From: Cellulomonas flavigena DSM 20109
GTDB lineage: Bacteria > Actinomycetota > Actinomycetes > Actinomycetales > Cellulomonadaceae
Length of the DNA stretch: 64,000 nt
Assembly: GCF_000092865.1 (NCBI RefSeq)
Contig: NC_014151.1
Coordinates: 1,178,001-1,242,000, forward strand
Direction of reading: 5' to 3'
Below are positions 49,949-51,283 of the stretch, piece after piece. A model generated the notes under the pieces. It made no database searches, was not told the DNA's origin, and saw only the letters and a program-made list of their open reading frames with translations. The first letter of the stretch is position 1. Every line of letters begins with the position of its first letter. The translations under genes and the position numbers were made by a program.

Positions 49949-49957
49949 TCCCACCAT

Positions 49958-50002
49958 CTCCCTCCATCCCCGCTCCCTCCATACCCGCTCCCTCCATCCC
50001 CG
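49958..50002 (+). repeat. Three tandem 15-bp C-rich repeats
   Basis: CTCCCTCCATCCCCG occurs three times in a row (49958, 49973, 49988), the middle copy with one change (A for C). The RNA downstream of glgP is thus C rich and G poor, as favoured by Rho, and is followed at once by a palindrome. Confidence 0.85.
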
Positions 50003-50003
50003 G

Positions 50004-50059
50004 CGAACAAGACCTTCTGCCGCTCATGTGACCTCATGAGCGGCAGAAAGCCTTGTTCG
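50004..50059. repeat. Palindromic repeat, copy 1
   Basis: Arms at 50004-50028 and 50035-50059 pair over 25 positions with two mismatches and a 6-base loop. The left arm starts CGAACAAGACCTTCTGCCGC. The same arms occur in copy 2 at 51175-51234, on the other side of the DUF559 gene. Confidence 0.9.
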
Positions 50060-50063
50060 GCGA

Positions 50064-50080
50064 ACCGACCACAGGTCGGT
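50064..50080. repeat. Small inverted repeat
   Basis: ACCGACC, ACA, GGTCGGT: a perfect 7-bp stem four bases after palindrome copy 1, in the leader of the DUF559 gene. Confidence 0.5.
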
Positions 50081-50171
50081 GGCCGGGGTGGTGCATCCAC
50101 AGGTGGGCGGGGCCACGGGCGCTGGGGGTCCGAGGGGATGGTCGGGTTCGGGGGTGAGACCTGCTGCTCCC

Positions 50172-51212
50172 GTGCCCGAGGCGCTGCTCCGACGTGCTCG
50201 TCGGCAGGAGGGGCTCGTCTCGACCCGCCAGTGCGATGCGGCCGGGCTGACACGGCACCGCCGGACCGCGCTCCGGCGCTCGGGTGTCCTGGTGCCCGTC
50301 GTCCGCGGGGTGCTCGACCTCGCGTCCGAGGTCGAGCGGTGGTGGGGAGCCCCGCTGTTCGGTGACGCGGCCGCGGGGCGGGAGGAGCTCCGCGACCCGG
50401 ACCACCTGCGGCGGCGGTCCGCCTGGACGGCGCTGCTCGCGCTCGGACCCGAGCGGGCGGTCGCGGTCGGTGCGTGCGCCCTCGCGCTGTACGGGGTGGA
50501 GGGTCTGCCTCGCGACATCCGCCCCGAGGCCAGTCTCGAGGCCGGGGATGCCGGGGGTGCGACTGTCGTCGCGGAGGACGGCGGCCCCGCCGGCCCGCGC
50601 CGTCCTCGCGGGGTGGCGCGGGCGCGGCAGTTCCGGACGGCGGAGATCCACGTCGTCCGCGGGGCGCGCATGGTGGCACCCGAGCTGGCGCTCGCGCAGG
50701 CGGTGTGCGAGCTGTCGCGGGAGCACGCTGTCGCCGTGCTCGACTCGGCCGTCCAGCAGCGACTGGTGACGCCGGACCTGCTCGCCGTACGCGCGCTGGC
50801 ACGAGGGCGCCGGGGTGCCGCACGGCTCGCTGACTGGTGGGAACTCGTCGACGGTCGGGCGCAGTCACCGCTGGAGACGAGGGCACGACTCCAGTGCGTC
50901 GACGCCTGCATCCCGCCGGACGACCTCCAGGTCCCGGTCCGGGACGTTCGAGGGCGCATCGTGGCGCGCGGCGACCTCGGGTGGCACCTCGCCGGCGACC
51001 GTCTCCTCGTCGTCGAGATCGACGGCCGGGGTCCGCACTCGACCCCGGCGGCCCTCTACCGCGACCGCGAGCGCCAGAACGCGATCGTCGCCTCCGGCAC
51101 CGTCGTCCTGCGCTTCACGGCGGCCGATGTCGGCTCGGCTCGCGTCGTCCCGGTCATCCGGCCACTCCTCGCCGGCCGAACAAGACCTTCTGCCGCTCAT
51201 CGGGCTCTGTGA
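50172..51212 (+). CDS. AbiEi-type/DUF559 nuclease-like protein between two palindromes
   Basis: 346 residues. About 1-45 is a winged-helix domain like the AbiEi antitoxin N-terminus (LLRRARRQEGLVSTRQCDAA). About 240-340 is a DUF559 (Vsr/PD-(D/E)xK-like) domain with SPLETRARL, GDLGW and VVEIDGRGPHS, giving plausible metal-binding acids. No partner toxin gene adjoins it. The GTG at 50172 sits right before the winged helix; in-frame GTGs at 50079 and 50154 would add poorly structured residues. The last 11-12 codons and the stop are formed by palindrome copy 2. Role unknown; defence or mobile-element nuclease are the obvious options. Confidence 0.82.
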   Translation: MPEALLRRARRQEGLVSTRQCDAAGLTRHRRTALRRSGVLVPVVRGVLDLASEVERWWGAPLFGDAAAGREELRDPDHLRRRSAWTALLALGPERAVAVGACALALYGVEGLPRDIRPEASLEAGDAGGATVVAEDGGPAGPRRPRGVARARQFRTAEIHVVRGARMVAPELALAQAVCELSREHAVAVLDSAVQQRLVTPDLLAVRALARGRRGAARLADWWELVDGRAQSPLETRARLQCVDACIPPDDLQVPVRDVRGRIVARGDLGWHLAGDRLLVVEIDGRGPHSTPAALYRDRERQNAIVASGTVVLRFTAADVGSARVVPVIRPLLAGRTRPSAAHRAL

Positions 51213-51234
51213 GCGGCAGAAGGTCTTGTTCGGC
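51175..51234. repeat. Palindromic repeat, copy 2 (perfect)
   Basis: Arms at 51175-51199 and 51210-51234 are exact 25-bp reverse complements with a 10-base loop. It shares its arm sequence with copy 1 and contains the stop codon of the DUF559 gene at the loop/right-arm border. Confidence 0.93.
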
Positions 51235-51283
51235 GGGGGTGTGGGAGGGGTGGGGTGTGGGAGGTGTGGGGTGTGGGGTGGGG
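51234..51283. repeat. G-rich low-complexity tract
   Basis: Runs of three to five G separated by T, GTGT or A, for example GGTGTGGGAGG twice. On the minus strand it is a C-rich RNA right after the stop of the FAD dehydrogenase and before palindrome copy 2, mirroring the glgP side. The G runs could also form a quadruplex. Confidence 0.75.

Follow-up and report, generated by a model that had tools for sequence, protein, structure and literature searches.

The glucan cluster of Cellulomonas flavigena DSM 20109 contains a single AbiEi-DUF559 gene bracketed by two copies of one palindrome, and the question is what the gene and the palindromes are to each other. The window, namely the whole 64-kb stretch of DNA analysed here, shows the order that a preliminary description had given for the locus: the stop codon of a glycogen phosphorylase-type gene (glgP, PF00343) is followed by C-rich repeats, palindrome 1, the AbiEi-DUF559 gene, palindrome 2, G-rich repeats and the stop codon of a convergent gene for an FAD dehydrogenase (PF00890), hereafter the FAD gene. 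That description had left a choice between a small mobile element of the REP/RAYT kind and a gene insulated by paired terminators. As argued below, the unit is likely to be a REP/RAYT-like system whose enzyme is an unrelated nuclease outside the HUH class. The features of the locus are listed in Table 1.

The arms of palindrome 1 (50001-50028 and 50035-50062) enclose a 6-nt loop, and those of palindrome 2 (51172-51199 and 51210-51237) a 10-nt loop. Recomputation gave the same shared 25-base arms as described before, perfect in palindrome 2 and with two mismatches in palindrome 1. Folded as ssDNA, palindromes 1 and 2 reach -27.9 kcal/mol (z -9.1) and -35.6 kcal/mol (z -11.0), and 0 of 200 shuffles fold as well. 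The arm has 4 matches in the window at up to 3 mismatches and 0 in 100 shuffles. The description of the gene as bracketed is correct in that two near-identical copies flank it, but at its 3' end the gene runs into palindrome 2, and its stop codon (51210-51212) lies inside that palindrome. The outer tracts are C-rich on the left and G-rich on the right, as had been noted, with the G-rich repeats spanning 51232-51272. This asymmetry is repeated at 8/8 solo copies of the same palindrome family (family 1) that were examined, at 13/24 copies of a Promicromonospora family and at 4/11 copies of a second C. flavigena family, compared with 15-29% of control gaps.

Table 1 Features of the AbiEi-DUF559 locus (positions in the window)
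Feature	Position	Strand	Remarks
C-rich tract, three ~15-nt repeats, outside palindrome 1	49953..50002		repeat family D3
Palindrome 1, left end of inserted unit	50001..50062		missing at empty sites of relatives
AbiEi + Vsr/DUF559-like nuclease gene, 352 aa from GTG 50154	50154..51212	+	longest ORF from 50079
AbiEi_4 winged-helix part	50178..50312	+	residues 34-78, 50079 numbering
PD-(D/E)xK Vsr/I-Bth0305I-like nuclease domain	50853..51185	+	residues 259-369, 50079 numbering; conserved E, D, ExD, H, N
Palindrome 2, right end of unit; includes the gene's stop codon	51172..51237
G-rich tract outside palindrome 2, near the FAD gene stop (51284)	51232..51279		repeats D6, D11

The likeliest start of the gene is the GTG at which the aligned N-termini begin. 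A database prediction of the protein has 306 aa and is shorter than the product of this alignment-supported start (window 50079-50292). The only Pfam matches of the gene are AbiEi_4, MTES_1575 and DUF559. The N-terminal part matches AbiEi, and the fold of the C-terminal part matches I-Bth0305I/Vsr-type nucleases. Numbered from the GTG, E241 and D274 are conserved in 80/81 sequences and E288, D290 and H295 in 80/80; these five would be the equivalents of the Vsr active-site residues. Fold match and conserved acidic and His residues agree with the earlier placing of DUF559 among the Vsr/PD-(D/E)xK-like nucleases. Unlike I-Bth0305I and Vsr, the nuclease is fused to AbiEi and bordered by palindromes and is not a stand-alone repair enzyme. 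Unlike the AbiEi antitoxin of type IV toxin-antitoxin systems, the protein has an extra nuclease domain, and no AbiEii toxin gene is adjacent; such a system (AbiE) was rejected because no toxin gene lies beside it, its neighbours in the window being glgP and the FAD dehydrogenase gene. Like the fold and the conserved residues, a dN/dS ratio of 0.19-0.33 over 7 pairs speaks for the REP/RAYT-like reading; the in-frame stops that 7/80 homologues have within the matched stretch count against it. Carriage on plasmids or phages was rejected, since a search at E 1e-5 of 72,556 plasmid records and 50,697 phage records gave no match to the protein. There is also no match in NCBIfam at E up to 0.01 and, by sequence search, none among solved structures at E up to 1.

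Relatives show that the unit was inserted. The FAD gene was detected in 63 of 81 genomes of the genus, and the best 30 loci were compared. At eight of these the glgP and FAD stops lie 13-64 bp apart with neither the gene nor a family-1 palindrome, so that the bracketed gene is an inserted unit and the empty site that the preliminary description had proposed to look for in relatives exists. Two of the eight, L171 (genome G048) and L173 (G028), have a different GC-rich hairpin between glgP and FAD, which may be an ordinary terminator. At a ninth locus (L160) the distance is 153 bp, probably owing to a frame problem. At four loci, in C. flavigena itself (G000), G003, G010 and G068, the gap measures 1245-1335 bp and is occupied by the gene. 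There is a hairpin at both ends of the gene in the first three and only a weak upstream one (score 13) in G068. In G003 the unit starts 11 bp past the stop codon of glgP, and the hairpin on its right directly adjoins that of FAD, so that the palindromes are the ends of the unit there. The gene adjoins FAD at four more loci, where glgP has no match in the retrieved stretch. Two of these, in G059 and G079, have a hairpin next to the gene. The lack of one in G025 and G044, and the weakness of the one in G068, again count against a REP/RAYT-like system. At the remaining 13 of the 30 loci, the retrieved stretch has no glgP directly next to the FAD stop. Since the gene is found at this place in seven related genomes, it is not a recent isolated insertion. 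It is probably shared by descent there, with mobility of the gene being old or rare.

The palindrome itself is dispersed in its own genome. The family-1 arm has 17 matches at 10 sites in the 4.12-Mb genome of C. flavigena at up to 3 mismatches (control, 0), and an eleventh site is found at up to 4 mismatches in one retrieved stretch. When the 81 genomes of the genus, G000 included, were searched at up to 2 mismatches, family 1 was absent as a family from the other 80, with a single stray arm in G023. The dispersal in G000 was among the checks that the preliminary description had proposed, and it comes out for mobility. A conserved locus feature of the genus is ruled out by this absence and by the empty glgP-FAD sites. 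An arm variant taken from G003 and G010 (GAACGCGG...) has at least 9 matches in 5 of the 7 genomes in which the gene occupies the glgP place (including G003 and G010), vs 0 of 73 others (Fisher 9e-7, with the threshold picked post hoc; Mann-Whitney 3e-5). G000 is excluded from this test because its family has other arm letters, and the background in non-carriers is 0-8 matches at 2 mismatches.

Other copies of the gene go with other palindromes. Paralog 2 of C. flavigena (3292442, 49% identical) is preceded by a family-2 palindrome, and a degenerate copy spans its stop codon. The family-2 arms have 74+74 matches in G000 (control, 1+0), several of them in tandem arrays of 73-80 bp, and within the genus this family is confined to G000 and G068, with 0-3 matches elsewhere. 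G068 has 37 family-2 arm matches and no close ortholog of paralog 2 (best 54%), so that the pairing of gene and palindrome is not strict; family 2 in G068 is possibly an orphaned, decaying repeat family. Paralog 3 (1916149, 31% identical), which matches AbiEi_1 at E 1.7e-30 and MTES_1575 weakly, has family-3 arms on both sides and a closed hairpin on one side only. The family-3 arms have 110+122 matches in G000 (control, 13+8). In the copies listed, this family, which lies beside the distant AbiEi_1 and nuclease paralog (L268, G000:C1:1915946-1917351), often forms single-arm arrays in G-rich or C-rich tracts and not closed hairpins. The closest paralog in G000, paralog 1 (612697, 60% identical; L269, G000:C1:612463-613773), is frameshifted and has no palindromes nearby, an observation that counts against the reading adopted here. 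Beyond the genus, the arm that flanks the gene in Promicromonospora has 151, 135, 65, 23, 20 and 4 matches in six genomes (control, 0) and no match in six genomes of other genera. In the Promicromonospora genomes with 23 and 20 matches, the listed scattered copies mostly have the variant bases of the gene-flanking copies of the same genome.

The association of gene and palindrome extends to homologous loci. The best 80 of 334 relatives found were compared as named loci; they come from Cellulomonas, Oerskovia, Cellulosimicrobium, Isoptericola, Promicromonospora, Occultella, Antribacter and other genera. Within the first 400 bp on each side, there are 28 hairpins of score at least 16 in 30.9 kb of upstream DNA and 37 in 31.9 kb of downstream DNA. 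The more distant DNA has 59 in 1,073 kb (5.5 per 100 kb), and the matched gene stretch itself has none. This is an enrichment of about 16- to 21-fold just outside the gene. A hairpin is present upstream (within 400 bp) at 27/80 loci, downstream (within 250 bp) at 37/80, on either side at 47/80 and on both sides at 17/80. The 33/80 loci without a hairpin at this threshold count against the REP/RAYT-like reading. Sorted by context, the 80 loci form 30 groups of up to 22 members; the gene is thus often inherited in place, yet it occupies many places overall. Vertical inheritance seems to be the rule for the gene and movement the exception. The small mobile element proposed for the glucan cluster therefore stands insofar as its arm is scattered, its site is empty in some relatives and it is not genus-wide, but it is neither small and unique, being found at many loci in many genera, nor recent, being shared with seven relatives.

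The palindromes agree at both ends of one locus and differ between gene lineages. For 18 loci, the upstream and downstream copies of one locus have a mean score of 21.6, compared with 7.4 between loci. The own partner scores best at 12/18 loci, and at 5/18 only one or two other loci score as high or higher; at the last one, L085, the score of 4 comes from one of two equal upstream hairpins, and the alternative hairpin scores 22. Seven pairs of paralogs from the same genome score 4-13. Palindrome similarity tracks protein similarity (Mantel r 0.42, 0/999): arms are alike in 83% of 18 pairs at 80% protein identity or more, in 55% of 22 pairs at 70-80% and in 0-1% of pairs under 55%. The sequence of the palindrome is thus specific to the gene lineage, and further copies are scattered, mostly between genes. 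Different palindromes were also seen at the same place beside orthologous genes, in L122:8928-8991 vs L095 and in L137:9014-9069 vs L120. Because their flanks are 88% and 92% identical, a palindrome can turn over more quickly than the DNA around it. Common palindromes are found in further close pairs, e.g. L126/L128 and L129/L142.

These matches bear on the view that the palindromes are bidirectional transcription terminators that insulate genes, their common sequence being incidental or due to gene conversion. The hairpins are strong, and palindrome 2 sits between convergent genes, as expected of a terminator. However, terminators need no common primary sequence, yet the two copies at a locus have like arms, and paralogs of the same genome have unlike ones. 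The fall in hairpin density away from the gene and the frequent upstream copy also speak against terminators, and neither stem in the window is followed by a T-run on either strand, which leaves room for terminators that work without one. Paired terminators as the whole explanation are ruled out because the arms match the gene lineage, and termination as the primary role is improbable. The terminator option of the preliminary description leaves the shared, gene-matched arms unexplained, but the preference of the copies for convergent gaps described below fits it, and a side role in termination beside the REP-like role is possible.

Alternatively, the palindromes may be MITE-like repeats moved by another transposase, with the AbiEi-DUF559 gene as cargo or passenger between two copies. 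That palindromes outnumber genes, and are abundant in G068 where a close cognate gene is lacking, would follow from this. Against it, genes of this one family have matching palindromes around or next to them again and again in many genera, and different paralogs have different palindromes. A passenger gene is given a low probability.

Comparison of G000 with the sister genome G010 indicates that the scattered copies are extra DNA. Among 29 clusters of two or more arms, 10 could be placed between collinear blocks, and the gap is longer in G000 at 9 of these 10 (e.g. 126 vs 11 bp, 367 vs 45 bp and 118 vs 64 bp). The exception measures 443 bp in G000 and 519 bp in G010, where the G010 sequence differs. 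None of the 10 G010 gaps has an arm of the respective family or a hairpin of score 13. Some of the compared gaps hold other differences too, and not all are clean footprints. No clean target-site duplication of the classical IS kind was seen in the comparison with G010, flank identity being only about 80%. Because families 1 and 2 are absent in most of the genus, we infer that the palindromes, at least those of these two families, were inserted in G000 rather than lost in G010. Beside the place of a solo palindrome in G000 (L191), an extra segment of ~2 kb in G010 (L199:5312-7689) is bounded by two different palindromes.

The copies are also unevenly placed with respect to gene orientation, as judged from genes called by a simple codon-usage script. 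The 33 distinct sites of family 1 and the Promicromonospora family comprise 15 convergent, 17 tandem and 0 divergent gaps and 1 unclassed site, compared with 2 convergent, 24 tandem and 9 divergent among the other gaps of the same loci (deduplicated background). Convergent gaps are enriched (15/32 vs 2/35, p 1.5e-4) and divergent ones depleted (0/32 vs 9/35, p 0.002). Families 2 and 3 have 3 divergent sites each, and 3/18 (family 2) and 2/19 (family 3) lie inside a gene call.

This placement bears on a further view, in which the AbiEi-type protein regulates its own gene, the palindromes serve as its operators and the scattered copies form its regulon. AbiEi binds inverted repeats at its own promoter, and the AbiEi architecture of the protein, the upstream palindrome at 27 of the 80 homologues and the divergent sites of families 2 and 3 agree with this view. 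A shifting DNA-binding specificity would likewise yield a correlation between protein and palindrome. However, downstream copies are commoner than upstream ones, and the copies of family 1 and Promicromonospora avoid the divergent gaps in which promoters lie and favour convergent ones. Operators would fit neither the tandem arrays nor the extra DNA seen against the sister genome, and the conserved nuclease site is left unexplained. We therefore consider a regulon unlikely.

A REP/RAYT-like reading has close parallels. PMC8266576 and PMC3733652 describe the REP/RAYT system (REPtron) as a single gene bordered by palindromes, with palindromes scattered between genes, often as inverted pairs and in tandem arrays. 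REP palindromes favour convergent and unidirectional gaps and co-evolve with the RAYT gene, which is usually single-copy and is reported not to have been seen to move (PMC8266576; PMC3733652). Layout, dispersal, gap preference and gene-palindrome co-evolution are common to the AbiEi-DUF559 units. Unlike in REP/RAYT, the enzyme joins a PD-(D/E)xK Vsr-like nuclease to AbiEi and is not an HUH tyrosine (Y1) transposase, GTAG stands at the hairpin foot in 0/65 gene-region palindromes, and the units found here, with their arms of about 15-42 nt, are mostly from Micrococcales actinobacteria. Alike in layout and dispersal, but with an enzyme that is not of the HUH kind and with no GTAG, the unit would work like a REPtron but is not one. 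PMC3733652 also describes CGTC-tagged REPs, scattered palindromes with no known transposase whose mobiliser is an open question. Unlike in these, CGTC is not enriched at the foot (10/65 vs 246/1600 random places), and a candidate enzyme is present.

A possible mechanism for such a REP-like nuclease system may be outlined. The AbiEi part would recognise the cognate palindrome, and the nuclease domain would nick or cut it, either as duplex or as extruded hairpin. Host repair or replication might then lay down new copies. The palindromes would thereby spread as non-autonomous units, with the gene bracketed by two of them as the autonomous source. To our knowledge, a hydrolytic nuclease of the Vsr-like fold has no covalent strand-transfer step, and copying of the palindrome would therefore need host repair.

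REP palindromes occur in many bacteria. Their described partner enzyme is the HUH RAYT, and REP families that lack it pose a puzzle (PMC3733652). No earlier report of an AbiEi-DUF559 gene paired with palindromes was found in searches of an open-licence library. On balance, we lean slightly towards the broader view that REP systems arose at least twice, once with the HUH RAYT and once with an AbiEi-fused nuclease of the Vsr/homing-endonuclease type that spreads its own palindromes in actinobacteria. This pair would switch its recognition sequence quickly, so that the ends of orthologous genes in close relatives can bear unrelated palindromes. If true, a second, unrelated enzyme class with scattered palindromes would mean that one parasitic or domesticated strategy evolved convergently. 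Proteins now named DUF559 or 'AbiEi antitoxin' would gain a suggested function, and a large natural set of protein-palindrome pairs that differ in specificity would become available for direct testing.
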